DNA of 38,599 nt from a bacterium (GTDB lineage Bacteria > Patescibacteriota > Andersenbacteria > UBA10190), in NCBI GenBank assembly GCA_030698495.1, contig JAUYKA010000032.1, positions 1 to 38,599 of the forward strand. The letters run 5' to 3'. Positions 400 to 38,599 of this stretch are shown in pieces. Both the position numbers and the translations under genes were made by a program. How positions within the stretch are numbered: the stretch's first letter is position 1; the number at the start of each line of letters is the position of its first letter. The notes below the pieces were generated by a model, which was not told the origin of the DNA, made no database searches, and saw only the letters and a list, made by a program, of their open reading frames with translations.

Positions 400-406
400 A
401 TGTGTC

Positions 407-1054
407 ATGGTCGCGAAATACAGTGAGTGGACTCGTGGTCAGGATGAAGCCTTGCTGAACAAGCTGGGTGGTATGAAAGTCGCTCTGCGCCTTCTCAACT
501 GCCGCGAAGTCAACGTGGAATTCGGGGACGAAGAAACGGTTGCGACAGTCGCTGCCATTGCTCCCAAACTGAAAGTCTGGAGACGGATCAAGCTCGGCAC
601 CGGCCTCAAAACCGCTGACGATTTCCGTCAGGCCATCAAGGACAACGATCTGCGCCTTGGCGACTGGGCAAGCGACATTCTCGGCAAGGAAGCCTTCACT
701 GTTGCTATCGAAGAGCAGGAAGTCGACCTCGTCGTGATGTCGGTGAAAGAACTCGGCTTCAAAGGCAATGCGCGTTTTGATCAGATTTGCGCTCGTGCCA
801 AGGAGCTGGGGTTGGAGCTGTGTCCCGCCGAAGTTGGTCCCCAGTTGCGTTTACAGTATCTGGACCAGCCCAAGAACGAGTGGCTCATCATTGCGATGGA
901 AGCCATTCGCGATTCGGACGGCCACCTGGGCGTCTTCGACGTCGAGCACGTTGACGATGGTCGTTGGTTGCGTGCCGGCGGTGGTGATCCCGTCAGTGTC
1001 TGGTATCCTGACGACCGGTTTGTGTTTGTCTCCTGCAAGGCTTTGGTTCCTTAG
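407..1054 (+). CDS. DGR target (variable) protein with C-terminal C-type-lectin-like variable region
   Basis: 215-aa ORF with SD AAAGGA; 3' end contains the VR encoding RDSDGHLGVFDVEHVDDGRWLRAGGGDPVSVWYPDDRFVFVSCK, matched by a downstream TR with adenine-specific differences. Confidence 0.9.
   Translation: MVAKYSEWTRGQDEALLNKLGGMKVALRLLNCREVNVEFGDEETVATVAAIAPKLKVWRRIKLGTGLKTADDFRQAIKDNDLRLGDWASDILGKEAFTVAIEEQEVDLVVMSVKELGFKGNARFDQICARAKELGLELCPAEVGPQLRLQYLDQPKNEWLIIAMEAIRDSDGHLGVFDVEHVDDGRWLRAGGGDPVSVWYPDDRFVFVSCKALVP
904..1038 (+). repeat. DGR variable repeat (VR)
   Basis: 135 bp aligned without gaps to 1368-1502 (offset 464); 14 of 15 mismatches are at TR adenines; final block ccggtttgtgtttgtctcctgcaa is identical. 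Confidence 0.92.
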
Positions 1055-1367
1055 ACTCTTCGACCTTGTTGTCGTTGCCCTTTGACCCCTTGAGCCCTTT
1101 ACAATTCGTTTTGCATCGGGCTCTTTTCTTTACTACAATTTTACATGGCATAGGTGACAACGTGGGCGGTTACGGCTTCCCGCTGCTTATTGCTAGTATC
1201 CATACAATCCAGAATATTCTCGGCTACGGTTTAGGATAGCGCGGTGTATGCAGACACTTCACCTCAAAATGAAGCTACTTGGTGTAGGGTGTTAGGGCAT
1301 GTGAGATGCCAAAAGCAATTCAGCCTTAAGAGTATTCAAGGGGCAGTGGAATAGACGGCATCCTATA

Positions 1368-1502
1368 CATTCGCGATTCGAACGGCAACCTGGACGTCTT
1401 CAACGTCGAACACGATGACGATGGTCGTTGGTTGCGTGCCAACTATGGTAATCCCGACAATGTCTGGAATCCTGACAACCGGTTTGTGTTTGTCTCCTGC
1501 AA
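1368..1502 (+). repeat. DGR template repeat (TR)
   Basis: Non-coding copy of the VR with about 30 adenines (hand count), rich in AAC/AAT codons, close to the RT gene and on the same strand. Confidence 0.92.
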
Positions 1503-1519
1503 CTTCTTCATTATCCTCC

Positions 1520-1918
1520 TTATTGTTTAGGGAGCGAGGTTTGTTTATCGCGCGCAGGCTGGATAAATTGTTCGGCCTGCTTGCGCCAGCCCCCGAGCAT
1601 CTTTCCGACCTCGGTTAGGGGATTAGAAAGCTCCATGTACTTTTTGTTGTTCAGAGCCTTTAATTCCCAAGCTATTTGTAGGAAGAATTTGAGCGAATCT
1701 AATTTCTGGGTGGCTTTCTGAATGACAGCTAGCTTTTCGCGTCGTTGGGTATAACTGGCAATAAGAATTAATTCGACTGTCTCGGTGAAAAGTCCATCGA
1801 TTTTTTCGCCGAGCGTATAGCGGGTTAAGCGCGGAATATCTTCTAGTAATCCGTGCCAGGACTTATAGGCACTGGTTGCTTTCGTGAGAATAGTCACGTT
1901 TGTGGTATGCGTTGGCAT
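1520..1918 (-). CDS. avd: DGR accessory variability determinant (Avd)-like four-helix-bundle protein
   Basis: LPRLTRYTLGEKIDGLFTETVELILIA...KLDSLKFFLQIAWELKALNNKKYMELSNPLTEVGKMLGGWRKQ matches the Avd/four-helix-bundle pattern; located between TR and RT. Confidence 0.85.
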   Translation of the reverse strand: MPTHTTNVTILTKATSAYKSWHGLLEDIPRLTRYTLGEKIDGLFTETVELILIASYTQRREKLAVIQKATQKLDSLKFFLQIAWELKALNNKKYMELSNPLTEVGKMLGGWRKQAEQFIQPARDKQTSLPKQ

Positions 1919-1950
1919 AATGTGGTTGGGTTTTTAATAAATAAATTGTT

Positions 1951-2949
1951 ATGTGTACTCAGCTCAAAGTTACCTTTGAACAAATCATCTCTTTTGAAAA
2001 TCTGCTTGAAGCATGGCAGGAATTTATAAGGGGAAAGAGAAACAAACAAGACGTGCAGTTTTTTGGCCTGCATTTGATGGATAATTTAGCAGATTTGCAC
2101 CTCGACCTAGCGCACCAAACGTACCAACACGGCTCATATCACGCGTTCTCTATATCTGACCCTAAGCCAAGAAACATCCATAAAGCAAGTGTACGGGATC
2201 GAGTCCTGCATCATGCGATTTACCGCAAACTCTACCCATTTTTTGACCACACGTTCATTGCCGATTCATATTCTTGTCGCAATAAAAAGGGAACACATAA
2301 GACTTTAGAGCGATTGACTGCTATGGCCAACCAGGTGAGTGCCAATCATACGAAAACTTGCTGGGTATTAAAGTGCGATATTACTAAATTCTTTGCTAGC
2401 ATTAACCAAGATATTCTGCTTTATATTTTAGGCTTATATATTCCTGATGAGAAAATTCTTTGGCTTCTCCAAAAAACTATTACCAGCTTTTCAACAAAAG
2501 AAAGGACGGGGTTGCCTTTGGGAAATCTTACTTCACAACTATTGGTCAATATCTATATGAATCAGTTTGATCAATACGTAAAACACATACTTAAAGCAAG
2601 ACACTATATCCGCTATGCTGATGACTTTGTTTTTCTATCAAATAGCCATCATTTGCTGGAGAGACAAGTTAGATTTATTCAAATCTTTTTAGAACAATGT
2701 TTGTTATTGTCTCTTCATCCCCACAAGGTTTCGATTCAGACCCTAGCTTCCGGTGTGGATTTTTTGGGCTGGGTCCACTTTCCTAATCATCGCGTATTAA
2801 GGACTACTACAAAGAAACGAATGGAGCGGCGGTTGGCGGTTAATTCCGAGCGGCCTACGTTAGCGTCGTATTTAGGAATGTTGAGCCATGGGGATACTCA
2901 GAGGATAAGGGGGGAAATGCTTAATAAGTATTGGCGACCGATCAATTAA
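1951..2949 (+). CDS. DGR-type reverse transcriptase
   Basis: RT motifs: RDRVLHHAIYRKLYPFFD, DITKFFASIN, GLPLGNLTSQLLVNIYMNQFD (the LGxxxSQ signature of DGR RTs), IRYADDFVFLS, GVDFLGW. Confidence 0.95.
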   Translation: MCTQLKVTFEQIISFENLLEAWQEFIRGKRNKQDVQFFGLHLMDNLADLHLDLAHQTYQHGSYHAFSISDPKPRNIHKASVRDRVLHHAIYRKLYPFFDHTFIADSYSCRNKKGTHKTLERLTAMANQVSANHTKTCWVLKCDITKFFASINQDILLYILGLYIPDEKILWLLQKTITSFSTKERTGLPLGNLTSQLLVNIYMNQFDQYVKHILKARHYIRYADDFVFLSNSHHLLERQVRFIQIFLEQCLLLSLHPHKVSIQTLASGVDFLGWVHFPNHRVLRTTTKKRMERRLAVNSERPTLASYLGMLSHGDTQRIRGEMLNKYWRPIN

Positions 2950-4065: not shown

Positions 4066-6165
4066 ATGGTGAATCTTTCTAGATTTTTGGTTATTTTGTT
4101 TATTGTGGGTCTCTTGGGATTTCTTGCCACTCCCAATGAATTGTTAGCCGAGTATAAATCAGATACGCCGTCGGGGCAGAATATTGCCAAGCTGCCGGCG
4201 ACGCCGGACGATCCTAAATTACTTAACGGCCATGTTTATCCGAACTGGGGGCCGGTATGCCAAAGGTATACATATTCGGTAATTTATGTGGATGACAAGG
4301 GCAGAGCGCCGGAATATGTGAAAATATATTTTAACGGTCAGATGTATGACATGGAGAAAGAAGATCCGGCTAGCAGTGATTATTTCCGGGGCGTTAAATA
4401 TGTTTACAAATATGTGCCTAAAAAACTGGGTTCCAATTTCTACTTTTTTGAAGCGTCCAATGGTCTCGGCAAAGCCAGGAGTAATATCATTGATTCGCCT
4501 GACAACGGGCCGGTATTGTTTAACAGCGCCTTTGAAAAAAACGAAATTGCGGTGGTGGATGCCAGTCAGCAAACAAAAATCTTGGCCTATGACGTTGGAG
4601 ACGAGTGGGTCGGCGGGGTGGCATTAAGTGATGATGGTAAATACTTAGCTGCCAAAACCCACAAAAAAATCTATCTTTTTGATACCTCAAAACCAGATAA
4701 TCCTATTTGGGTGTATGAAGGTCCGGGAGAACGTCCCGGGGATGTAAAGGGAGGGATTGATATCTCTGGTGACGGGAGCCGAATTTTTGCTTCAATTGGT
4801 GGCAGGGGTATCTTGTTTGACAATAAAAGCAACGAACCGCTTTGGATCTATCAAGGAACTAATAATGCCTATAATGCAGCTATCTCCAAAGACGGCAAGT
4901 ATATGGCGATGGGAACGGCCGGCGGGGTATCGAGCACGGCTGACGGCTATCAATCATTCCCAGACACTAATCTTTTAATCTTGTGGAATGAGAAAAGTGA
5001 AGCGCCTTTATGGCAGTATCACACCGAAGGAAACTGGCATGATGTTTCTTTATCTGATGACGGCAGTTTTATAACCGGCGCGACCGGTTGTCCTGACAGG
5101 AGATTCTATCTTTTCTCTAAAGATTCAAATAAACCAGTTATAAGAAGCGAGATGCTGACAAAGGATTCGCCGGTGCACCGGGCAAAAATTTCCGGGGACG
5201 GCCGGTATGCGGCCGTCGGCAGCGAGTCTAATGACGGGGCAGTGTTTCTGTTTTTCCAGGACTCAAGTACGCCGGTCTGGAAAGCGCCTATGCCCGATCG
5301 AAGCTCGGTCAGAGCATTGAATTTTACTTCCGACGGCAAATATATCGGGGCAGCTACATTCAAAGGTGATGTTTTTATTTTCGGCCGTGATTCAGACAAT
5401 CCCATCGCTCACTGGAATGTCGCTAATGTGTCATTGGGAGGAGTTGATATTGCCGAGGATGGCAGTTTTATAGCTGCTGGCGGAACTGATAACAAGCTGC
5501 ATATTTTTCCGCGGGATTCCGCGGTACCGAAAAGTATTGATTTTAACGAATACGTGCAGGAAGTGGATATTGCGGCCAACGGAAAATATATCGCGGCTGG
5601 AACTGGCGGGTCTGTTTATTTTTTTGAAGCGTTCGAGGGCTCTATGCCACCAGCGGTTGAATGTCAGGAGATTAAAGAGCCTCCAGTCGAGGAGGCAACA
5701 ATTATCAATCAGCCCTTGTCTGGCAATGCAGTTATAAAGGACGCAAGGACAGATAAAAAACAATGGCCGGGAATGTTGTTTGGCTTTGGTTTTTTGGGTT
5801 CACTAATGGTCTTAGCCGGTTATATCGGGGCGGTTAAATATGGCTGGTTATCCAAGCTAAAGCGCATACCAGTAAAGGAGATGGCAGAAATACAATCAGC
5901 TGATGGCCGAGAAGAGAGGTTGAAGTTGAATAGAAAAATTGTTACTGCGATTAGCGCCGTTAGTTTGATTTTTCTGGTATTGACTGTTATGGCTGGAGTA
6001 ATAAATGGGATAAACAAGCAGAAACTGGAGAATAGTGGAAAACAAGGGCAGGAAGCTGCTTTGGCAGAAGAGGGTGAAATTAAGGAGACGGGATGTGGCA
6101 ACAGTATGTGTGAGCCTGATCGTGGTGAAACAAAAGCAAGCTGCCCGCAAGATTGCTTGGAGTAA
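4066..6165 (+). CDS. Beta-propeller (WD40/PQQ-like) repeat protein, exported, C-terminal TM and Cys-rich motif
   Basis: Repeated SDDGKYLA/SGDGSRIFA/SKDGKYMAMG/SDDGSFITG blades; N-terminal hydrophobic segment; TM segments near the C-terminus; terminal CGNSMCEPDRGETKASCPQDC. Confidence 0.8.
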   Translation: MVNLSRFLVILFIVGLLGFLATPNELLAEYKSDTPSGQNIAKLPATPDDPKLLNGHVYPNWGPVCQRYTYSVIYVDDKGRAPEYVKIYFNGQMYDMEKEDPASSDYFRGVKYVYKYVPKKLGSNFYFFEASNGLGKARSNIIDSPDNGPVLFNSAFEKNEIAVVDASQQTKILAYDVGDEWVGGVALSDDGKYLAAKTHKKIYLFDTSKPDNPIWVYEGPGERPGDVKGGIDISGDGSRIFASIGGRGILFDNKSNEPLWIYQGTNNAYNAAISKDGKYMAMGTAGGVSSTADGYQSFPDTNLLILWNEKSEAPLWQYHTEGNWHDVSLSDDGSFITGATGCPDRRFYLFSKDSNKPVIRSEMLTKDSPVHRAKISGDGRYAAVGSESNDGAVFLFFQDSSTPVWKAPMPDRSSVRALNFTSDGKYIGAATFKGDVFIFGRDSDNPIAHWNVANVSLGGVDIAEDGSFIAAGGTDNKLHIFPRDSAVPKSIDFNEYVQEVDIAANGKYIAAGTGGSVYFFEAFEGSMPPAVECQEIKEPPVEEATIINQPLSGNAVIKDARTDKKQWPGMLFGFGFLGSLMVLAGYIGAVKYGWLSKLKRIPVKEMAEIQSADGREERLKLNRKIVTAISAVSLIFLVLTVMAGVINGINKQKLENSGKQGQEAALAEEGEIKETGCGNSMCEPDRGETKASCPQDCLE

Positions 6166-6455
6166 ACAGGAAAATAAGAACGGGCACTTTCTATGCTGCC
6201 ATCTCTGGCTGGACAGTTTTTCGGAAAGAGCAATCTCATAAGTCGCCGGTAATGGAGGAATGAAATGCCGTCTGTAGTTACGTGACAGGTTTCGTTAAAT
6301 GGTTAAGGGGTCAAGGACAAGGAGAAATGGCTTACATGGGGGTTGAGGCGCTTAAGCTCTTTGGGCGTTCTTGACTTTGGCTGGTTTGTCGTGCACAATT
6401 TTAAGTTGCTGCCAGAGGACAGCGAGACTTAGGTTCTTTTGCAATAAGGAGACTT

Positions 6456-7130
6456 GTGATGCTAGACACTTTGCAGTTGTATCGTTGTATGTGTCTGATG
6501 TCCGGTAGATTTCCCCGGTTGGTTCATTGCGGAAAGGTCAGCGCGATTTTTGTTTGGGGGCGGGCTGTGGATGAGGGGGCACCGACACCATACGACGATG
6601 GAGTGTTGAAATTGGTAGCCGATTTGTATCGGCAGACAGGAGCGCCGGTGATTATCCCCGGTTATTGCGGGGTTGATGTGGGACAAGGTGGGACCGGTTA
6701 TCCGGGACCACAGGTGTGGCGTGGTGTTTTGAAGGTACTAGGAGTACCTGGTGATCAGGTTATAAGTGGTTCCGGTTGTGGTCATAACACCAAGACGGAG
6801 ATGGACGATTTTCTGGATTTAGCAATGACCAAGCGCTGGCGTACGATACTGGCGGTGACGCAGGTGCATAACGCTCTTCGGGCCATGCTGGGCGCTGTCA
6901 AGTCAATGGCCAACCAGCACATTTCACGTCTGATGGTGGTCCCGATGTGGCCAGTTGCGTTTGACTGGGGGCGCGAGTGTTACGGGTCGCAAGGGGAGGG
7001 GCCGTTTCCGCGGACAAGATGGGTTGATGAGGAGTTTGACCGGATTGTTCGATATCAGGCGAAGGGCGACTTGGCGAGCCTAACTGACTTGTACGCGTAT
7101 CTGATGTGGCTTTATCGTGAGCTACAATAG
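6456..7130 (+). CDS. YdcF/DUF218-like protein
   Basis: AIFVWGRAVDEG...PVIIPGYCG...VISGSGCGHNTKTEMDDFLDLA...ILAVTQVHNALRAM resembles the DUF218 fold; SD aaggaga upstream. Confidence 0.65.
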   Translation: MMLDTLQLYRCMCLMSGRFPRLVHCGKVSAIFVWGRAVDEGAPTPYDDGVLKLVADLYRQTGAPVIIPGYCGVDVGQGGTGYPGPQVWRGVLKVLGVPGDQVISGSGCGHNTKTEMDDFLDLAMTKRWRTILAVTQVHNALRAMLGAVKSMANQHISRLMVVPMWPVAFDWGRECYGSQGEGPFPRTRWVDEEFDRIVRYQAKGDLASLTDLYAYLMWLYRELQ

Positions 7131-7145
7131 ACTGTGTGATGTTTC

Positions 7146-7176
7146 CCGCTCGAGGTTTTTACCCCGGGCGGTTTTT
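7146..7176 (+). terminator. Rho-independent terminator
   Basis: CCGCTCG...CGGGCGG followed by TTTTT. Confidence 0.7.
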
Positions 7177-7209
7177 CATTTTCGGCCAAACGTATAAACT
7201 AAAAGTATA

Positions 7210-9018
7210 ATGAGATTCGAGCGTTTTATTTGTTTAGGCATAGTATTGGCCGCGGTGATTGGCGGCGCTGTGTCTGTGTGGGCGCAGGAGGGTTGGCGTA
7301 TAAATAGTCTGGACAGTGACTTGACGGTGCAGCCAGATGGGGTGCTGGCGGTGACGGAAAGCATCGCGGTTGATTTTGGTTTATTGTCCAAGCACGGGAT
7401 TTATCGCGATTTGCCGGTGACATATCAAGAAGAAAACGGCAGTAAAAGTTATACGCGTATTACCGATATCACCGTTATACAGGATGGCACGCCGGCCGTG
7501 GTGGATACAACTTCTAACGGCGCAAATTTGCGTATAAAGATTGGCGATGCTGACAGGACAATCAGCGGCAAACATGATTATGTAATCAGCTATGCGGTCA
7601 CGGGAGTCCTGCGGGCTTACGAGGGATTTGACGAGCTTTATTGGAACGTAACCGGCAACGAGTGGGAAGTGCCGATTAATGAGGCGCGGGCGACGGTGAC
7701 AGTGCCGGTACCTGTTTTACGGGCGGCTTGCTATAAAGGAGTGTATGGTTCTAAGGAAAAATGTGATGATTTAACGCAGGCGGAGCATAAGGTTACGGTT
7801 GCGGCGCTTGGCTTGGCGGCGGGCGAGGGGCTAACGGTAGCTGTCGGCTGGCAGTCGGGCGCGGTACCGATTTTAACGGTGGCAGCGCCGCCAACTTTAG
7901 CTGATATTATTTTTGCACCGGTGACGCTGGTGACGGCCGGGCTAGTTTGGTTAATTGGCGCGGGCTGGTTAGTGCGGCATTGGTGGAAGTACGGGCGGGA
8001 TCGTTATTGGGCGCGGTCCGTTTTACCGGGCGTGACTTCGCCGGGGGGTGACAAAAATTTAGCGGAAAAAATTTTGCCGTTTGGCTATCGACGTCCGGTA
8101 TCCGTTGAGTATGAATCGCCGAATGGGTTGCGGCCGGCGGAGATTGGTGTGTTGATGGATGAGAAAGCGGATACATTGGATGTGTCGGCGACTATTGTTG
8201 ATTTGGCGGCACGGGGATATTTAATAATTACAGAAATTTCCAAGAAGTGGTTGTTCGGGAGTGTTGATTATGAATTCGGGCGGACGGATAAGGGGTCGGC
8301 GGATCTTTTGCAATACGAGCATAAATTGTTGGAGGGTCTTTTTGATGATGGTAATAAGGTGAAGCTGTCCGAATTAAAGAATAAGTTTTATAAGGATTTG
8401 GAGCAGGTGAAAGACGAGTTGTACGAAGAGATGGTACGCAAAAAGTTGTTTGCTGGTCGGCCGGATCGGGTGCGTGCTTTGTCATTTTTGTTGACGGCGG
8501 GGTTGGCGGTGCCCGGGACAGTGTTGGTGTTTTTGTCCCTAAATAGCGTGGGGAATATTGGCTGGCTGCAGCGATTGTTACTGGGGGCCGGGATTGGCTT
8601 GGCTGCAGCGGCGGTCGTTGCGGCACTGGCAGCACCGTTTATGCCGCGCAAGAGCGGTTTGGGACGGGAACTATACGAGCGTGCGAAGGGCTATCGGTTG
8701 TTTGTGAGTGGCACGGAGAAATATCGGGCGCGATGGTTGGAGGATGAGGGTTTGTTTGAGCGGGTACTGCCTTACGCGATTGTTTTCGGCGTGACGGACA
8801 AGTTGGCACAGGCCTTTAGGGAAATGGGATACCAACCGCAACAGCCGGGTTGGTATCACGGAGCAGGTGTGTTTAACGCAGCCGTTTTTGCGGCCAACGT
8901 GGATGGTTTTTCCAAATCGTTGTCATCGGCTTTGGCATCCAGGCCGGGCGGATCCGGTTCCGGTGGCGGAGGTTTTTCCGGTGGCGGAGGCGGTGGCGGA
9001 GGGGGAGGATCGTGGTAA
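7210..9018 (+). CDS. DUF2207 domain-containing predicted membrane protein
   Basis: Signal peptide; WRINSLDSDLTVQPDGVLAVTESIAVDF...GIYRDLPV; central TMs; Gly-rich C-terminus GGGGFSGGGGGGGGGGSW. Confidence 0.85.
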   Translation: MRFERFICLGIVLAAVIGGAVSVWAQEGWRINSLDSDLTVQPDGVLAVTESIAVDFGLLSKHGIYRDLPVTYQEENGSKSYTRITDITVIQDGTPAVVDTTSNGANLRIKIGDADRTISGKHDYVISYAVTGVLRAYEGFDELYWNVTGNEWEVPINEARATVTVPVPVLRAACYKGVYGSKEKCDDLTQAEHKVTVAALGLAAGEGLTVAVGWQSGAVPILTVAAPPTLADIIFAPVTLVTAGLVWLIGAGWLVRHWWKYGRDRYWARSVLPGVTSPGGDKNLAEKILPFGYRRPVSVEYESPNGLRPAEIGVLMDEKADTLDVSATIVDLAARGYLIITEISKKWLFGSVDYEFGRTDKGSADLLQYEHKLLEGLFDDGNKVKLSELKNKFYKDLEQVKDELYEEMVRKKLFAGRPDRVRALSFLLTAGLAVPGTVLVFLSLNSVGNIGWLQRLLLGAGIGLAAAAVVAALAAPFMPRKSGLGRELYERAKGYRLFVSGTEKYRARWLEDEGLFERVLPYAIVFGVTDKLAQAFREMGYQPQQPGWYHGAGVFNAAVFAANVDGFSKSLSSALASRPGGSGSGGGGFSGGGGGGGGGGSW

Positions 9019-9028
9019 TTAAAATATT

Positions 9029-11416
9029 ATGAAACGACTGATTAAAACTTGGCTGGCGCTGTTTATTGGACTTGTTATTGTCGGCGGTCTGATTTCTTGG
9101 TGGTTGTTATCTGCTCCGGCGGATTGGCCGGTAGCGAAGACGGTGGGAGTGGATAAGTGGAAGTGGCACCGGCCGTTTGCCGGCGAGGCGCAAGTGAGCC
9201 AGTGGTTTGTGCCGGAAGCGGAAACGCTTTCCCGAGTGGATGTGTTAGTGGTGGATTTTAAACATCGCTCGCCGGTGGCGCCGATTGTTTTGCGGATTAG
9301 CGATATGGATTCCGGCGAGGTGCTGCGTACGGTGGAAGTGTCGGGTAATGAAGTGAAGGATGACTATTACCTGCCGTTTAGTTTTGAGCCGATCAGGAAC
9401 GCGGAAGGAAAGAAAATACTGCTTACTTTATCGGCACCCGAGGCCAGTTTGGAAGCGCCGTATGCCGTGCGTCTGACGGAGGGCGACGCGATAGAGGGAG
9501 GTGTTAAAACGGCGCAGGAAAGAGTTTTTATTGAGCAGGACATTGCTTTTGGCTATTATCGCTCGACTAATCAAGCGTTTGTGTTGTGGCAGTGGGGGCT
9601 GGCGCATGAGCGGGAAGTTGTGTTGTTGGCGGCGGCGCTGGTGTTGGCATTAGCGGGGAGCTGGCTGTTGGCGGCGGCGCAGACAAGCAGAAAATATGCG
9701 AACTTATTAATCGGGGTAATAGCTGTTTTGGGTGCGGTATTGCAGTTGAATGTCATCCGCTTTCTGACGGGCGCGGTGGGCGGCGACGCTTATTATTATC
9801 TGGCGGCGGCTTATAGGATGGCGCATGGGATTAATCCGCTGGCGGGCAGTTTGCATTTGCCTTTTTATCTGTTGTTGCTTTATCCGGCCCTACTGCAGGC
9901 AGTGCCGGATTTGTTGTGGGGAAGGATTTTAGGGGTGTTGCTGACAACAGGTATTGTTTGGGCGCTGGTGTTGTTGGCTCGGGCTTTAGGGTTTCGGCCG
10001 TTGGTGGCCGGTTTGGCGGCGGTGCTGCTTTTTATTAATGCTAATTTTGTAGTGACCAGCGTGCGGCCGCGGCCGTATACGCTGTTGGCTTTTTTATTAC
10101 TGATGAGCATAGCGTTATTGTGGCGGGTGAAAACGCCGCGGCAGGCTTGGCTGTGGGGGATGCTGTTAGGCGCGGCGGCAATTACCCGGCAGGAGACTTT
10201 TATTCCTATTGCCATATTAGTGGCGGTGTTGGCAGTGAGACTGTGGCGGCAGGGAACGGCTTGGCGGAAAATTGCTTGGTGTTTGGTGCTGGCGGTGCTG
10301 CCGGCGGCGGTGATGATGCTGCCTTATTTCTATGAGAATTATCGGGAATTTGGTAATCCCTTAACCAGCGCTTACTTCGGGCGTTCAGATTTAGCGGAGC
10401 CGGATAGTGTGCATGCCTTTTTAGACGGCAATTTACGCAGCATGGTCTGGACGCTGTCTTATGTGTGGCTGCCCAGTTCTGCGTCGGGAATGAAGTTGAA
10501 CGCCGGCGGGCAGGTTGCTTTGATTTTCGGCACTTTGCTGCTGGTATATTTGGCGCAGCGCTGGCGTGTGAGCCGACGATTGTTGTCGGTGGTGATGCGG
10601 AAATGGTATGGGGGAGATGCGGTGGCAATCGCGGCGGCTATGGCGGCGCTGGCAGCATTGGTCTGGTGGCAATTTCGACACGGAAAAGACTGGACCCAGG
10701 AAATGAATATGGTGCTGCTGGCGGCAATGATTTTAGGCGCGGTGGAAATAATCCGGGTGGGGCGGTGGCGCGGGCTGGTAGTGGTGGGGGTCTTGTTGTC
10801 GCAATTGGGCATTGCCACCTGGTTTCATCCGGAGGCCAAGCACTATCAGCAGGCGATGCCGTTTTTGGCTCTGGGTATGGCAGTGGTTCTGCTGCCGCTG
10901 GCAGGCGCGGGAGTTATTGAAAAAAATGATACGTTGCCGACAAAGCGTTGGCGGCTGGCGTTATGGGCGGCGCCGCTGGCGCTTTGGCTGGCATTGTTGG
11001 GTGCGGCCGATATAACTCATTTTGATTTTGCTATTGACCAGCATAATTTTCCGGCAGCGCCGTATTATGTTACTACCGCTGCGGCGGAAGAGTTGGAGAG
11101 ATATGCGGGCAATAAGGCGGCAGAGGTTGATTATGCTAACGGGAGCGGGATTTACCGGCTGCACACGTATCAGCAGTATAAATTTATCCAGTATGAGCTG
11201 AAGTTATCCGAAGAGGAGCAGATACGCTGGTTGTGCGATAATGATATTAAATATGTGGTTGATCATGATGATTTAAATTGGTTTACGGTGATAGAAGAGG
11301 ATGCCGACTGGTCGCCGTATTTTAAATATATGTTTGAGAAAAAGACGCTGGGCAGGAACGATACACAGTGGCGGGTAAGTGTCTATGAGTTTGATCAGGT
11401 GGCGTGCGGGAGGTAA
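9029..11416 (+). CDS. Multi-pass membrane glycosyltransferase-like protein (GT39/GT-C style)
   Basis: 795 aa, many TM helices, GDAYYYLAAAYRMAHGINPLAGSLHLPFY loop typical of GT-C enzymes. Confidence 0.65.
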   Translation: MKRLIKTWLALFIGLVIVGGLISWWLLSAPADWPVAKTVGVDKWKWHRPFAGEAQVSQWFVPEAETLSRVDVLVVDFKHRSPVAPIVLRISDMDSGEVLRTVEVSGNEVKDDYYLPFSFEPIRNAEGKKILLTLSAPEASLEAPYAVRLTEGDAIEGGVKTAQERVFIEQDIAFGYYRSTNQAFVLWQWGLAHEREVVLLAAALVLALAGSWLLAAAQTSRKYANLLIGVIAVLGAVLQLNVIRFLTGAVGGDAYYYLAAAYRMAHGINPLAGSLHLPFYLLLLYPALLQAVPDLLWGRILGVLLTTGIVWALVLLARALGFRPLVAGLAAVLLFINANFVVTSVRPRPYTLLAFLLLMSIALLWRVKTPRQAWLWGMLLGAAAITRQETFIPIAILVAVLAVRLWRQGTAWRKIAWCLVLAVLPAAVMMLPYFYENYREFGNPLTSAYFGRSDLAEPDSVHAFLDGNLRSMVWTLSYVWLPSSASGMKLNAGGQVALIFGTLLLVYLAQRWRVSRRLLSVVMRKWYGGDAVAIAAAMAALAALVWWQFRHGKDWTQEMNMVLLAAMILGAVEIIRVGRWRGLVVVGVLLSQLGIATWFHPEAKHYQQAMPFLALGMAVVLLPLAGAGVIEKNDTLPTKRWRLALWAAPLALWLALLGAADITHFDFAIDQHNFPAAPYYVTTAAAEELERYAGNKAAEVDYANGSGIYRLHTYQQYKFIQYELKLSEEEQIRWLCDNDIKYVVDHDDLNWFTVIEEDADWSPYFKYMFEKKTLGRNDTQWRVSVYEFDQVACGR

Positions 11417-11526
11417 AAATTCAAGGTTTGCGGTTTTGGGGCGAGGTAGAATATAATAGGAGGCTTTGCTTTGGGCAAGGTCGCAGGTTTTCGTCCTTTT
11501 GGCAATTGAATATGGAGGATAGTGAT

Positions 11527-12585
11527 ATGAAGTTGAGATTACGCGGAATTGGAATTAATCGTGTAGGCAATGCGGCGGGAGCGCGAGGTCTTTTCGGTGA
11601 TGGCTATTGGTACCATAAGTACCTTCGGCCGTTCGGGTTGAACTGGGACGGGGCGACGCTGTTTACCAAGACGGCTACGTGGGGTTCCCGGCGTGGTCCG
11701 GATTACAATGAGCCGGGCAATATGCGAATGACCGAAGACGGTAAGCAACCAAAGGAGCGTTTTCCGGATTGTATTAAAGTATATCCGGTCCGGCGTATGG
11801 CGCTTAACTCGGTTGGTTTAAGCGGCCCGTCATTAGACGCAGTACTGGCGGATGGACGCTGGCAGGTGTGGCCCGAGACGCTGGTGATTTCGGTTATGGC
11901 GCTGGGGGAAACCATGGAAGCGCGGTTGGCTGACATGCAGCGCATCGTGCGTCGGCTGAAAACGGCACTGCCCGGTTGGCGCTCGCCCGTTGTGATTGAA
12001 ATAAACATTTCCTGTCCGAATGTTTGTCTGGATTTGATGGCGCTGGTGAGAGAGGCCTGGTATTTGCTAGATATTGCGGCGGAGCTTGATGTGCCCCTAA
12101 TTATCAAACTGAACGCATGCACGCCGGCAGAGGCGGTGAAGAAGATATCGGATCACCTGGCTTGTGATGCGATTAGTGTGACCAACACTATCCCGTGGTG
12201 GCGCCAGCCGGTGGTTGGATATGTGGACTGGATGCGCCTGTTTGGTACGGACATTTCACCGCTGGCTAAATACAAAGGAGGTGGTCTGTCGGGCGCGCCG
12301 CTGTTGCCGATTATAGAGCAGTACATCAAGTTGCTGTTGGAAATCGGCGTGACGGTGCCGATTATCGGCGGCGGCGGAGTGTTATGTTGCCGTGATGCCG
12401 ATCGTCTGATTCGTGCCGGCGCCAGTGCGATATCGCTGGGATCGATTGCCATGCTGGCACCGTGGGAGGTGCGGCGGGTGATCAGTCATGTGAAGCGACG
12501 CTATGCGGCGATTACTAGAGTAAGAAAACCCGCTTGGGAGAGAAGGCGGCGGGTGTTGTGGCCGATGGATTTGGCGGCGTGCTAG
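11527..12585 (+). CDS. pyrD: Dihydroorotate dehydrogenase
   Basis: INISCPNVCLD, IIKLNACT, ISVTNT, GGLSGAPLLPI, IIGGGGVLCCRDADRLIRAGASAISLGS; start chosen at 11527 because of ggagg upstream (ORF track starts at 11404). Confidence 0.88.
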   Translation: MKLRLRGIGINRVGNAAGARGLFGDGYWYHKYLRPFGLNWDGATLFTKTATWGSRRGPDYNEPGNMRMTEDGKQPKERFPDCIKVYPVRRMALNSVGLSGPSLDAVLADGRWQVWPETLVISVMALGETMEARLADMQRIVRRLKTALPGWRSPVVIEINISCPNVCLDLMALVREAWYLLDIAAELDVPLIIKLNACTPAEAVKKISDHLACDAISVTNTIPWWRQPVVGYVDWMRLFGTDISPLAKYKGGGLSGAPLLPIIEQYIKLLLEIGVTVPIIGGGGVLCCRDADRLIRAGASAISLGSIAMLAPWEVRRVISHVKRRYAAITRVRKPAWERRRRVLWPMDLAAC

Positions 12586-12619
12586 TTTGCAATCACAGTT
12601 TTAGCGTAGGAGAAAGATT

Positions 12620-13648
12620 ATGGGTACGTATACACAGAGACGGCCGGACAACGGGCACGTGCATTTGCGCGATCTGAACTTGGAGACTGGGGAGTTGCTG
12701 CGTTTCATGGTGCCGTACACGGCGCGGCAATTTGGCCGGGCGGTGTGTATGGGCAACACGAAGCCGCCAACCGAAACGGCGGCGTCTGCCGCTGGGTACA
12801 AAGAACAGATTTTAGGGTTTGCCAAGGAAGCCGGGTGTCTGAACTTTGAGCCGGTGGTAACACTTTTTCTGACGGAAAGGACGACTCCTTTACATATTTT
12901 GGAGGCTCACGCGGCCGGTATTGTGGTGGCAAAACACATACCGGATGGTGTGAGTACAAACTCTGACAATGGTCTCGCGGATTTGCTAACTAAAAAGAAC
13001 GTGCTGGCAACCATGCGGGATGTGGGCATGATCCTGTCGGTGCATCCGGAGAAGCCGGGCGTGTTCTGTCTGGATCGCGAGGAGGCGTATCTGCCGACGA
13101 TTGCCGAGACTATTCGTTTGTTCCCACGCTTGCGGATTGTGGTTGAGCACTTGACAACAAAAGCAGGGGTTGAGTTTGTTGTTGAGGCGCCGGAAAATGT
13201 GGCGGGGACAATTACGGCGCATCATTTGTGTATGACACTGGATGACTTGATTAGCGGTGGGTGCCAGCCGCATAATGTGTGCGCGCCGTGCGCCAAGCGG
13301 CCATCGGATCGGGAAGCGTTGTGGAGCGCGATTGGCAGCGGCAACCCGAAGTTCTTTTTTGTATCGGACAGTGCGCCGCACATGAGAGAGCTTAAGGAAT
13401 GTGCCAAGGGTAAGCTGGGTACGTTTACGGAGCCGTTCGTGATGCCACTCTTGGTGCAGAAGTTTGAGAAAAGAGGGCTACTGCACCGACTGGAGGCGTT
13501 CACGTCGGAGTTCTGGGCGCGGTTCTACGGCTTTTCACTGAATGAAGATACGATAACGCTGAAGCGGGAGCCGTGGCAGATACCCGCGAGTTATCATGGC
13601 GTCGTGCCGTTCATGGCCGGGGAGATGCTGGGTTGGCAGTTGGCGTAA
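12620..13648 (+). CDS. pyrC: Dihydroorotase (class II/homodimeric type)
   Basis: RRPDNGHVHLRD, VPYTARQFGRAVCMGNTKPP, KHIPDGVSTNSDNG, VVEHLTTKAGVEFV, TITAHHL, FFVSDSAPHMRELKECAKG. Confidence 0.9.
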   Translation: MGTYTQRRPDNGHVHLRDLNLETGELLRFMVPYTARQFGRAVCMGNTKPPTETAASAAGYKEQILGFAKEAGCLNFEPVVTLFLTERTTPLHILEAHAAGIVVAKHIPDGVSTNSDNGLADLLTKKNVLATMRDVGMILSVHPEKPGVFCLDREEAYLPTIAETIRLFPRLRIVVEHLTTKAGVEFVVEAPENVAGTITAHHLCMTLDDLISGGCQPHNVCAPCAKRPSDREALWSAIGSGNPKFFFVSDSAPHMRELKECAKGKLGTFTEPFVMPLLVQKFEKRGLLHRLEAFTSEFWARFYGFSLNEDTITLKREPWQIPASYHGVVPFMAGEMLGWQLA

Positions 13649-34889: not shown

Positions 34890-34942
34890 TGTAGTAGTTG
34901 AAGTAGGTATGCATAGATTTTTAGGAGGGTTTGCATAGATAT

Positions 34943-37900
34943 ATGCCAGAAAGTAGTCCTTCGGAAAAATTAGTGTCCATAAGCGCTGCGGCGCGGATTT
35001 TGGCTGTGTCGATTGATACGGTACGTCGATGGGAAAGGAAGAAATTAATAGCGTCTTCCAGATCGGCTGGGGGGCATAGATTATTTGCAGTCAGTGAGTT
35101 GGAGGATTTTAAGAATAATAAGCCGTATTCAATCTCGGAGGCGGCGCATTTTTTGGGGGTGTCGGCAAGCACTTTGCGTCGGTACGAGGAAAGGGGTTTT
35201 TTAATTCCTAAACGTAACGAGCATGGAGAAAGAGTATACGGTTTAGGAGTTTTAAGAGTATTTAAGGATCGCAAGAAAGAGAGAGTCAAAACTGTTGCGA
35301 AGCGTGTTGAGCAAGAAGGTTTGCCGGTCGTATCCGCGGAGGCTTTGATAGCGCCGGCGCTGTCGTCTTGGTCTCATAAACCGCAACATGATCCTATTTT
35401 TAGCCGACCGGTAAGTGTGGTTGATGAAAAACCTAGGAGGCTTTATATAGAGCCAAATAATGTTACTGGGAAAAAAGAAATTTTTATAAAAGTAAGATTT
35501 AGACATATAGCTGTATCTGCTGCAGCGGTATTGGCGGTGGTTGTAATGTCTAGAGTGTTATGGTTGTCTGGAGCTAGGTTTAGCGGAAATATGTCTTTTA
35601 TGAACGAACCTTTGGCTAAGATTGCCGGTGATAGGTTTGAAGATGGCGGCCAGGCAAGCTTGCAGTTTGCGGGCGTGCCCGATGAGGGAGCGAGGGTGCT
35701 GGCGGTAACATCGGAGGAGTTGGATAGTTTTCTGGAAGTAAACGTACCGTCTTTCTTTAACGCTCCTATTACGGCGGACGGGATGGATATAAATCTTGGG
35801 TCGGGGCGAATATTCGCATCGAATATTGTGAACTCTTTGCAGGGGCAAGTGGGTGATTTGAATTTGCAAGCAGGCGAGGGTATAGCTATTGACGGTTTGA
35901 CTATAACCAATACGGCCATGGGGCTTGAAGTTGAGCCGCAGGATGCGTTTCAAACAGTAAAAGTTGGCAGTGATGAATTTGCGGCGAACGAGCCGGATGA
36001 AATACTGACAGTGGCGGGTAGCGGCAGCACAACTGTTTCTTTGGATAAGAATACGGGCACTCTGACTATTACCGGCACTGATAGTGACACTACTTACACG
36101 GCCGGATCTGACTTGACTTTAAGCGGGACAACCTTCTCGCTTGATTCGGTTTTAGATTCCGTTACCACTATAAACGGGTTAACTACCGTTGACGCAGTGA
36201 CGGAGAATACAGTTGAAGGGCTAATATTCGATACTGATGCAGAAACTATTAGTGGTGTGTGGACGGTAGCGGATGACACGGCTTTAGGGTTTGGTAGCGA
36301 TTCCGACTGGTCGTTAAGTTATGCCGAGACAGGGACGGATCAGTTGCTTTTGCAAACAACCAACACGGCGGCTACGGCGACATCGAAGCCAATGTTTGAA
36401 ATTTTGGTGGGGACGACGCCGACGGCAAATCAGCAAGTATTTGGTATTGCCAAAGGGACGACGGCAAGCCGAACGCCAATCTTTACGGTTGACGAGGATG
36501 GAGACGTGGGGGTGACAGGAACGACAACTTTGAATGGACAGACTTATACATGGCCAAGTGCTGATGGTGATTCTTATTATGTTTTAAGTACAAATGGTTC
36601 GGGACAGCTGTCCTGGATTAACCCGGCGGAGGCGGGAGCGTCCGGCGATATCTTCTCGGTAGGCACATGTGCCAGCGGTGATTGTTTTACCAGCGGCAAC
36701 ACTCAAGCGTATAGTTTGTATTTTGAAGGGGCAACAGCTGATGACTACGAAGTGATATTGACTGCCGCCGATGCCACATCTTCCGATAAAACTATTACTT
36801 TGCCTAACGCAACAGGGACCGTAATATTGTCCGGTCATACTTTAACGAGTGATGTTACCGCGACTTTACAGTCAACCGGCAGTACGTCTGTTACTGTAGC
36901 CAGAATTAATGGTGCAGAGTTGGGCGATGTTACCGCGACAGATGGGGACTTATTGTTGGCTAATGGCAGCCAGTGGGCATCGGTGGCAATGAGTGGAGAT
37001 GTAGGAATCACCTCCGGTGGGGTGACAACAATTCAGTCGGAAGCGGTGGAAACGGGAACGCTGGATTTAATGGATGGAAATTCGGTTTCTGATGAGTATT
37101 GTCTTACTTATGAGGCAGATGGCGTGAACGGCAATTTCGCCTGGCAGGATTGCAATGCTACAGGTTACCAGTCATTTGCTATCAGTGATGGATTCACATC
37201 GCAAACCATTGAGAGTGGCGATACAATAACTTTTGCGGACGGGGCGGGGATAGACGTGGCTGTTTCGGCTACCGATACGGTGACGGTAGCCTTAAGTCAT
37301 CTCGGTTTGCAGAGTCTGTCTGATCCTGGTACTGATAGTATGTTTTTCTGGGACGAAAGCGTTGATGCTTCAGCGTGGTTGGCGCCTGACGGTACTATTC
37401 TGCAGATATCCGGCACTACTCTACAGGTAGCGTCCAATAGCCTAAACTTTTCCGAGTTGAGTAATGACTTGGCGCTGGATGCTTCCACCACTATTACTGC
37501 TGATGGTACGGAAGTGCTAACTATAACCAACACTGGCAGCGGCAACTCGTTTGTAGTTAACGATGAGGCGGGTGACGCTACACCGTTTGTTATCAACGCG
37601 TCCGGCAATGTGTCGGTAGGCGGTGACCTTACTATTTCTGGTGATGATCTCTTTATGACTACCAATACCTTAGGTGCTGTTTTGGTTGCTGATGGTACCA
37701 ACTTCAATCCGGTTGTCATGTCAGGCGACATTACAGTTGCTGTTGATGGTGTCACAACGATTGCCAACGACGCGGTGGAGCTGACCACCCAGACGACCGG
37801 CAATTACGTGGCGACCATCGCCAACGCTGACGGCGGGGTGATGACGGTGGCAAACGGCACGAGCGAGGGCGGAGCGGTTACTTTAGATATTACTGATAAT

Positions 37901-38599
37901 AGTTTGGATTTCACGGAACTTTCTAATACACTGGCGCTGGATGCTTCCACCACTATTACTGCTGATGGTACGGAAGTGCTAACTATAACCAACACTGGCA
38001 GCGGCAACTCGTTTGTAGTTAACGATGAGGCGGGTGACGCTACACCGTTTGTTATTGGTCCAGCCGGAACTATATCTGTTGCCGGCGTAGAATATACTTG
38101 GCCGGCTGGTCCTATTGCCGGCAATGATTATGTTTTGGCTGCCCAAACAGACGGCGTGTTGGCTTGGGTGAGTGCTGAAAGTGCTGGTGCAGTTATGGCG
38201 ATAGGCGACTGCGCTTCCGGCGACTGTTTTACCGGCACATCTGGAACTTATCTGGTGTTTAATGACGCCACCGGCGATGGGACACTGGAGATTGCAGATT
38301 TAACAGAAGCGGCCGGACGCACCTGGACGCTGCCGGATGCGGATGGCACCGTCATTTTGTCCGGGCACACGTTTACCGGCGATGTCACCGGCACGCTGGA
38401 CACGGACGGCAGCACGGGACTGACGATTGCCAATGACGCGGTGGAGCTGACCACCCAGACCACCGGCAACTACGTGGCCACTATCGCCGATGCCGGGAGC
38501 AGCTTAATCACGGTGGCTAACTCGGGGACCGAGAACGCGGCGGTAACGCTGACCATTACTGATGACAGTCTGGATGCGGCGCAACTGGCTGACAGCCTC
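34943..38599 (+). CDS. Giant MerR-HTH (x2) / TM / repetitive fiber-like surface protein, incomplete at the 3' edge
   Basis: ATG 34943, in frame for 1219 codons to the window edge with no stop found in the stretches translated. N-term VSISAAARILAVSIDTVRRWERKKLIASSRSAGGHRLF and YSISEAAHFLGVSASTLRRYEERGFLIPKRNEHGERVYGL; TM HIAVSAAAVLAVVVMSRVLWL; then Ser/Thr/Gly/Asp-rich beta repeats. Confidence 0.85.
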   Translation, partial: MPESSPSEKLVSISAAARILAVSIDTVRRWERKKLIASSRSAGGHRLFAVSELEDFKNNKPYSISEAAHFLGVSASTLRRYEERGFLIPKRNEHGERVYGLGVLRVFKDRKKERVKTVAKRVEQEGLPVVSAEALIAPALSSWSHKPQHDPIFSRPVSVVDEKPRRLYIEPNNVTGKKEIFIKVRFRHIAVSAAAVLAVVVMSRVLWLSGARFSGNMSFMNEPLAKIAGDRFEDGGQASLQFAGVPDEGARVLAVTSEELDSFLEVNVPSFFNAPITADGMDINLGSGRIFASNIVNSLQGQVGDLNLQAGEGIAIDGLTITNTAMGLEVEPQDAFQTVKVGSDEFAANEPDEILTVAGSGSTTVSLDKNTGTLTITGTDSDTTYTAGSDLTLSGTTFSLDSVLDSVTTINGLTTVDAVTENTVEGLIFDTDAETISGVWTVADDTALGFGSDSDWSLSYAETGTDQLLLQTTNTAATATSKPMFEILVGTTPTANQQVFGIAKGTTASRTPIFTVDEDGDVGVTGTTTLNGQTYTWPSADGDSYYVLSTNGSGQLSWINPAEAGASGDIFSVGTCASGDCFTSGNTQAYSLYFEGATADDYEVILTAADATSSDKTITLPNATGTVILSGHTLTSDVTATLQSTGSTSVTVARINGAELGDVTATDGDLLLANGSQWASVAMSGDVGITSGGVTTIQSEAVETGTLDLMDGNSVSDEYCLTYEADGVNGNFAWQDCNATGYQSFAISDGFTSQTIESGDTITFADGAGIDVAVSATDTVTVALSHLGLQSLSDPGTDSMFFWDESVDASAWLAPDGTILQISGTTLQVASNSLNFSELSNDLALDASTTITADGTEVLTITNTGSGNSFVVNDEAGDATPFVINASGNVSVGGDLTISGDDLFMTTNTLGAVLVADGTNFNPVVMSGDITVAVDGVTTIANDAVELTTQTTGNYVATIANADGGVMTVANGTSEGGAVTLDITDNSLDFTELSNTLALDASTTITADGTEVLTITNTGSGNSFVVNDEAGDATPFVIGPAGTISVAGVEYTWPAGPIAGNDYVLAAQTDGVLAWVSAESAGAVMAIGDCASGDCFTGTSGTYLVFNDATGDGTLEIADLTEAAGRTWTLPDADGTVILSGHTFTGDVTGTLDTDGSTGLTIANDAVELTTQTTGNYVATIADAGSSLITVANSGTENAAVTLTITDDSLDAAQLADSL
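37470..37593 (+). repeat. 124-bp perfect direct repeat, copy 1
   Basis: tggcgctggatgcttccacc...acaccgtttgttat identical to 37932-38055. Confidence 0.9.
37932..38055 (+). repeat. 124-bp perfect direct repeat, copy 2
   Basis: Identical to 37470-37593; offset 462 bp (154 codons), in frame. Confidence 0.9.

Follow-up and report, generated by a model that had tools for sequence, protein, structure and literature searches.

A Patescibacteria diversity-generating retroelement with an antisense avd and a structured RNA 5' of the template repeat that may guide target choice

Introduction

The systems closest to the diversity-generating retroelement (DGR) described here are that of phage BPP-1, the inverted DGRs and the DGRs restricted to CPR bacteria; a further parallel is offered by group II introns, which recognise their targets by EBS1-IBS1 pairing. 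In BPP-1, the order is mtd-avd-TR-brt: avd precedes the template repeat (TR) and shares its strand, and the end of TR (2332) is separated from the start of brt (2477) by a 144-nt spacer. The spacer recruits the reverse transcriptase (RT) together with Avd and primes cDNA synthesis (PMC12875486); how the mutated cDNA finds the variable repeat (VR) is, according to the same paper, not fully understood even in this phage (PMC12875486). Inverted DGRs, group 4 of DiGReF, have their parts distributed over two strands (PMC3521204). Clade 2 of Roux et al. (2021, PMC8144416) comprises DGRs of Patescibacteria chromosomes whose targets are without membrane domains; as far as its main text goes, that study leaves open whether these targets are truly non-membrane proteins, and it makes no mention of either Avd or an RNA domain.

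The window analyzed here is a stretch of 38,599 nucleotides that makes up the entire contig C31 of the 1.16-Mb genome of a tiny uncultivated bacterium. A sequence-only reading had described positions 404-2949 as a complete DGR of an already known class, with a layout deserving attention. The class is indeed known from the published clade 2, and the layout does merit attention, for a reason which that reading did not contain: an antisense Avd and an RNA domain 5' of TR. A chromosomal DGR of a Patescibacteria lineage is the best explanation of the locus.

Results

Components of the retroelement

Target, VR, TR, Avd and RT were all identified (Table 1), and the identity of the locus as a complete DGR is well supported by adenine bias and by profile matches of RT and Avd. 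The 135-bp repeat proposed at 904-1038 and 1368-1502 was recovered with 89% identity and no gaps; VR forms the C-terminal end of ORF 407-1054, and no supported gene covers the TR copy, as had been claimed. The two copies differ at 15 positions, 14 of them on the 30 adenines of TR (A>G 10, A>T 3, A>C 1; P = 5e-10 for at least 14 of 15 falling on adenine by chance), the single remaining difference being T>G at TR position 1444. The differences are therefore adenine-specific, as is characteristic of DGRs. Among 85 unique loci chosen with an adenine-bias threshold of 0.7, 1451 of 1534 TR/VR differences are at TR adenines, and VR and TR are 261-447 nt apart in 82 of the 85 (loci with TR and antisense Avd). 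The genome yielded no further VR of this TR, 904-1038 being the only one.

Table 1. Coordinates of the DGR, its RNA elements and the second DGR of the genome (L009 positions refer to that locus)
Feature	Position	Strand	Basis
Target gene, 215 aa	407..1054	+	ORF; AlphaFold model, pLDDT 86.5
VR, C-terminal codons of target	904..1038	+	repeat comparison with TR
VR 3' boundary, CAAG-GCTT, complementary to leader guide with 2-nt bulge in guide	1036..1043	+	weak at this locus, strong across relatives
Terminator-like hairpin and T-run downstream of target gene; possibly also the target-site hairpin	1092..1130	+	position conserved, 85 loci
-10-like TACAAT, candidate template-RNA promoter	1134..1139	+	consensus match only
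P0 5' strand in leader, AATGAAG	1268..1274	+	leader/TR-flank pairing
Candidate guide segment in leader, AAGC-TA-CTTG, complementary to VR 3' boundary	1272..1281	+	complementarity tests
Structured RNA, three-way junction (model R1)	1275..1372	+	covariation; window match 93 bits, E 4e-23 (window is 1 of 29 training rows)
Junction stem P1	1282-1293 with 1357-1368	+	model R1
Junction stem P2	1296-1300 with 1306-1310	+	model R1
Junction stem P3	1323-1327 with 1340-1344	+	model R1
TR, template repeat	1368..1502	+	repeat comparison with VR
P0 3' strand in TR 3' flank, CTTCATT	1506..1512	+	leader/TR-flank pairing
Bulged hairpin (1514-1537) and U-tract (1540-1546), terminator-like, overlapping 3' end of antisense avd	1514..1546	+	folding; position over loci
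avd, antisense to TR and RT	1520..1918	-	Pfam bAvd, NCBIfam Avd, PHROG 3206
DGR reverse transcriptase (LGxxxSQ as LGNLTSQ; YADD)	1951..2949	+	profile and structure matches, tree
L009 RT, strand opposite TR/VR	7583-8683	+	second DGR
L009 TR	8990-9110	-	second DGR
L009 Avd	9426-9764	-	second DGR
L009 target	11907-13253	-	second DGR
L009 VR	11914-12034	-	second DGR

The product of 1951-2949 carries the proposed DGR-type motifs, GLPLGNLTSQ and YADD, and its best solved relative is the RT of the BPP-1 DGR (8ub7, E 2e-39); group II RTs score about 19 orders worse. The tree position on which the earlier reading had staked its claim was examined by maximum likelihood: the RT joins other Patescibacteria DGR RTs (97/94), BPP-1 bRT lies among the DGRs, and group II RTs fall outside (100/100). 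An Rfam search for a group II intron ribozyme around the RT gave no match. Of 381 genomes sampled from the phylum, 96 contain RT relatives (E <= 1e-40), whose surroundings were retrieved for comparison together with those of relatives in named genomes; the closest named relatives belong mostly to Kaiserbacteria and Zambryskibacteria, with 57-65% identity. Several Patescibacteria (e.g., G009, G174, G301) have 3-5 DGR-type RT matches per genome. A subset of RTs (G178:C5, G230:C9, G065:C5) contains an insertion of about 25-30 aa just before LGxxxSQ, where the matches split at query residue ~183 inside one open frame.

The target has no match in Pfam, NCBIfam or PHROG, and inspection by eye revealed neither a signal peptide nor a membrane helix; the protein is probably cytoplasmic. 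Its AlphaFold model reaches pLDDT >90 over most of residues 60-210, and the best Foldseek hits are almost all C-type lectin domains at non-significant values (E 0.03-0.5, low TM-scores); the predicted VR-encoded C-terminal face is possibly C-type-lectin-like. Homologues occur in 14 of 97 genomes searched, both as short proteins and as fusions in which the target-family C-terminal domain is carried on long N-terminal regions (420-770 aa in total; L013, L017, L018, L024, L032); three scanned fusions gave no Pfam domain above the cut-off.

The same genome contains a second DGR of another type, L009 (G000:C36:4000-20000), with a TR/VR of 121 bp in which 16 of 17 differences are at adenine, and a 448-aa target that by eye looks exported and has an FGE-sulfatase-like C-terminus. 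The R1 RNA described below is absent from L009. Palindromic repeats (GTCATTCCGG...) are densely scattered over its region 4600-12000, with as many as 8 copies of 70 nt, and some of them overlap ORFs. At the far end of the window, an open-ended plus-strand ORF (34931-38599, >1223 aa) displays, by eye, two MerR-like helix-turn-helix stretches, a membrane helix and long adhesin-like repeats.

Antisense orientation of avd

The assignment of 1520-1918 as Avd agrees with the profile searches: Pfam bAvd matches above its cut-off (E 3.5e-14), NCBIfam Avd matches at E 9e-20 with 70.9 bits, below the 80-bit cut-off, and PHROG 3206 matches as well. The gene lies on the minus strand, which had not been stated earlier. 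Avd is antisense and situated between TR and RT in 103 of 104 unique Avd-bearing Patescibacteria loci; the lone exception, L072, has an RT that groups with the RT of L009. Relative to the TR end, the avd stop codon lies between -12 and +57 nt (median 17) in 84 of the 85 loci with TR and antisense Avd. In the phage DGRs inspected, BPP-1 included, an annotated avd or an equivalent small gene is located upstream of RT on the same strand. The novelty of the antisense layout is not proven.

A structured RNA ends at the start of TR

By fold z-score, the 85 loci are structured in three zones: behind VR, immediately ahead of TR, and in the first 70 nt or so that follow TR. The zone before TR corresponds to a three-way junction with the conserved motifs ACTTGG, AATA..ATACAGCC, GAGAGTATTC and GGCAGTGG. 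In its alignment, 93% of cells are paired and 20 of 22 pairs show two-sided changes; compensatory cells number 155, whereas shuffling leaves 44 (0/500) and sliding the structure 16-44, and the covariation score of 0.72 falls to 0.33 after shuffling and to 0.23 at most after sliding. Since G.U cells outnumber A.C cells (86 vs 16), the RNA is the plus, TR-sense, strand. The existence of an RNA structure 5' of TR is thus well supported.

A covariance model of the junction, R1, finds the window element as its sole match on the contig and sole strong match genome-wide, recognises 53 elements in loci outside the training set, and has matches in 70 of 381 Patescibacteria genomes. The element directly precedes TR in 66 of the 85 loci, the other 19 having no R1 match. 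R1 had no match in the DGR loci searched from outside Patescibacteria or in five of the genomes that carry them. Viral DGR contigs likewise gave none, and the element is absent from viral DGR loci with related RTs. A pattern of the conserved core did occur in viral contigs; none of the 80 contigs listed fits the covariance model, so these occurrences are attributed to chance. In Rfam, the 5' RNA of the window and 14 related loci has no match at gathering score, and the hits of the window at a lax threshold are chance only.

The leader, which precedes the junction, can pair with the bases immediately 3' of TR; this pairing is designated P0. In 66 loci, a leader and its own partner average -11.08 kcal/mol, compared with -7.29 for permuted partners (0/20000 as low; z -12.7 with the anchored window, z -8.3 with the initial 80-nt leader window); with the exception of the VR boundary, pairing the leader with windows elsewhere in its locus yields -5.7 to -7.3. 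The pairing persists though the sequences vary widely, and it recurs in held-out cassettes (11 TR-VR pairs, 0/10000). Upstream, -10-like hexamers peak 220-260 nt before TR across loci. An unconstrained fold of 1255-1550 contains P0, P1, P2, P3 and the 3' hairpin together; the whole folded window RNA is not more stable than its shuffles (z -0.61), and single-sequence folding was rejected as proof for that reason.

In three relatives (L086, L337, L338), target, VR, junction, TR, P0 3' strand and hairpin are present, and the 5-9 kb fetched contains neither Avd nor RT; each of their genomes has an RT elsewhere. The RNA element is therefore independent of a neighbouring avd, the 3' hairpin is not a by-product of avd coding, and the template RNA probably acts in trans.

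Complementarity between leader and VR boundary

The match between leader and VR boundary first appeared in the control windows of the P0 test. The final leader bases, which immediately precede P1, can pair with the VR end and its VR-specific flank: the longest Watson-Crick helix averages 5.71 compared with 4.05 on permutation (z 13.5) and 3.2-3.8 at shifted windows, and helices of at least 7 pairs occur in 16 loci against 1.4 expected; since the loci are related, the permutation values somewhat overstate independence, and held-out loci agree (P 0.0009, 11 previously unused TR-VR pairs). Examples are L106 (AGCTACTTG with CAAGTAGCT), L107 (AGTTACTTG with CAAGTAACT) and L144 (ACGAAACTGC with GCAGTTTCGT). 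The case rests on such relatives, because the match in the window amounts to 4+4 pairs (CTTG/CAAG and AAGC/GCTT) around a 2-nt bulge and its own fold is unremarkable. A guide function in target choice is suggested by the complementarity across loci and is weak in the window's own sequence.

The complementarity might instead be a by-product of leader-TR pairing through the shared TR/VR 3' end, having no role in target choice. TR and VR resemble each other up to the boundary, the leader pairs with the TR end within P0, and, because the guide overlaps both the P0 strand and the shared end, part of the signal could be cis pairing. Permuting only the VR-specific flank nevertheless abolishes the match (z -6.8, 0/10000), a single test that speaks against a cis origin, and the helices reach 1-10 nt into the VR flank (L106, L107, L040, L144, L339). 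We regard the by-product explanation as having some plausibility but as unlikely, and favour a guide that pairs with VR.

In 31 DGRs of other types, the stretch +32 to +52 nt 3' of TR alone is clearly more complementary to the VR end than expected (z -3.1, a modest value given related sequences and 18 offsets tested). Such spacer stretches are seen in L387, L048, L049, L052 and others; in the BPP-1 spacer, AGGTGGTC is complementary to GACCACCT and CTCAA to TTGAG across the VR boundary. These sequence matches suggest the hypothesis that the 3' stretch of other DGRs and the 5' guide here could serve the same function in permuted order.

The 3' side of TR and the leader hairpin

A second alternative is the ordinary BPP-1 mechanism, in which the stretch 3' of TR, now antisense avd and hairpin, is the spacer and the 5' structure merely stops or stabilises the cDNA. 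It would accommodate the conserved hairpin and T-run, which in 56 of 85 loci end no more than 60 nt past TR, compared with 0-3 per 30-nt bin farther into avd, and BPP-1 cDNA synthesis is known to end 5' of TR (PMC12875486). Against it, no unusual structure was detected deeper in the antisense avd of the 85 loci (mean z near 0 beyond about +70 nt) whereas the 5' junction covaries strongly, and the cassettes without avd retain only the short hairpin 3' of TR. The contrast of 5' here with 3' elsewhere is not a clean one, as other DGRs give mixed fold z-scores, with some structure, both 5' and 3' of TR. On this evidence we hold the ordinary mechanism to be improbable.

At 1257-1274 of the window and in the leaders of relatives, a local hairpin, CTTCA..TGAAG, excludes P0; it folds in 32 of 66 leaders, 13 being expected, and a conformational switch between the two is possible. 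The switch-like hairpin, present in part of the loci, would suit a regulatory leader (riboswitch or attenuator) controlling TR or RT expression in place of a component of the template RNP. This explanation is very hard to reconcile with a P1 end that coincides exactly with the TR start, with a P0 that spans TR and with an element that accompanies TR in cassettes without RT or Avd. That the DGR is degenerate and inactive, as its single VR and the one difference outside adenine might hint, is scarcely credible, since all ORFs of the locus and the catalytic motifs are unbroken and the TR/VR differences are nearly all adenine-directed.

Discussion

We consider it likely that this DGR employs its template RNA as a separate unit, with a guide/primer domain 5' of TR, and that VR is recognised by pairing of the group II kind. 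In this model, TR would be transcribed as its own short RNA consisting of leader, three-way junction, TR, short 3' flank and terminator hairpin. Pairing of the leader with the TR 3' flank in P0 would bring both TR ends together, and junction and P0 would be the likely docking and priming platform for RT and Avd, a task for which BPP-1 uses the spacer 3' of TR. The RT would copy TR into adenine-mutated cDNA and halt at the P1 stem, which ends at the TR start. The leader guide would pair with the VR 3' boundary, like EBS with IBS in group II introns, so that VR and not TR is chosen, and the cDNA would replace VR and alter the C-terminal face of the target.

More tentatively, and with slightly less than even confidence, we hypothesize that the template RNA of Patescibacteria is a stand-alone, trans-acting guide RNA, whose guide/primer domain moved from 3' to 5' of TR in a circular permutation of the BPP-1 order and whose EBS-like segment selects the recipient gene by pairing with the VR 3' boundary; the weaker complementarity 32-52 nt 3' of TR in the 31 other DGRs would be the ancestral form. 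A guide covarying with the VR boundary across dozens of genomes offers a testable answer to how the cDNA finds VR, and R1 detects template RNAs even where no RT gene is nearby. If the model is true, target choice by DGRs would be linked to the base-pairing logic of group II introns.

The locus shares with BPP-1 the RT family, Avd, an adenine-mutagenised TR/VR pair and a C-terminal VR. It departs from the canonical layout in that avd is on the minus strand, 3' of TR and before RT; a structured spacer of its own between TR and RT is absent, a short hairpin followed by antisense avd taking that place, and the structured RNA lies 5' of TR. Like DiGReF group 4, it has parts on two strands, although there RT is opposite to TR and VR (PMC3521204) and here Avd alone is opposite. 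It very probably belongs to clade 2 of Roux et al. (PMC8144416), from which no difference has been shown: it too resides on a Patescibacteria chromosome, and its target likewise has no recognisable membrane or other domain. With group II introns it has in common a related RT and a short RNA complementary to the target boundary, whereas no ribozyme was found and the RT is that of a DGR, outside group II in the tree; the likeness is one of mechanism, not of membership.
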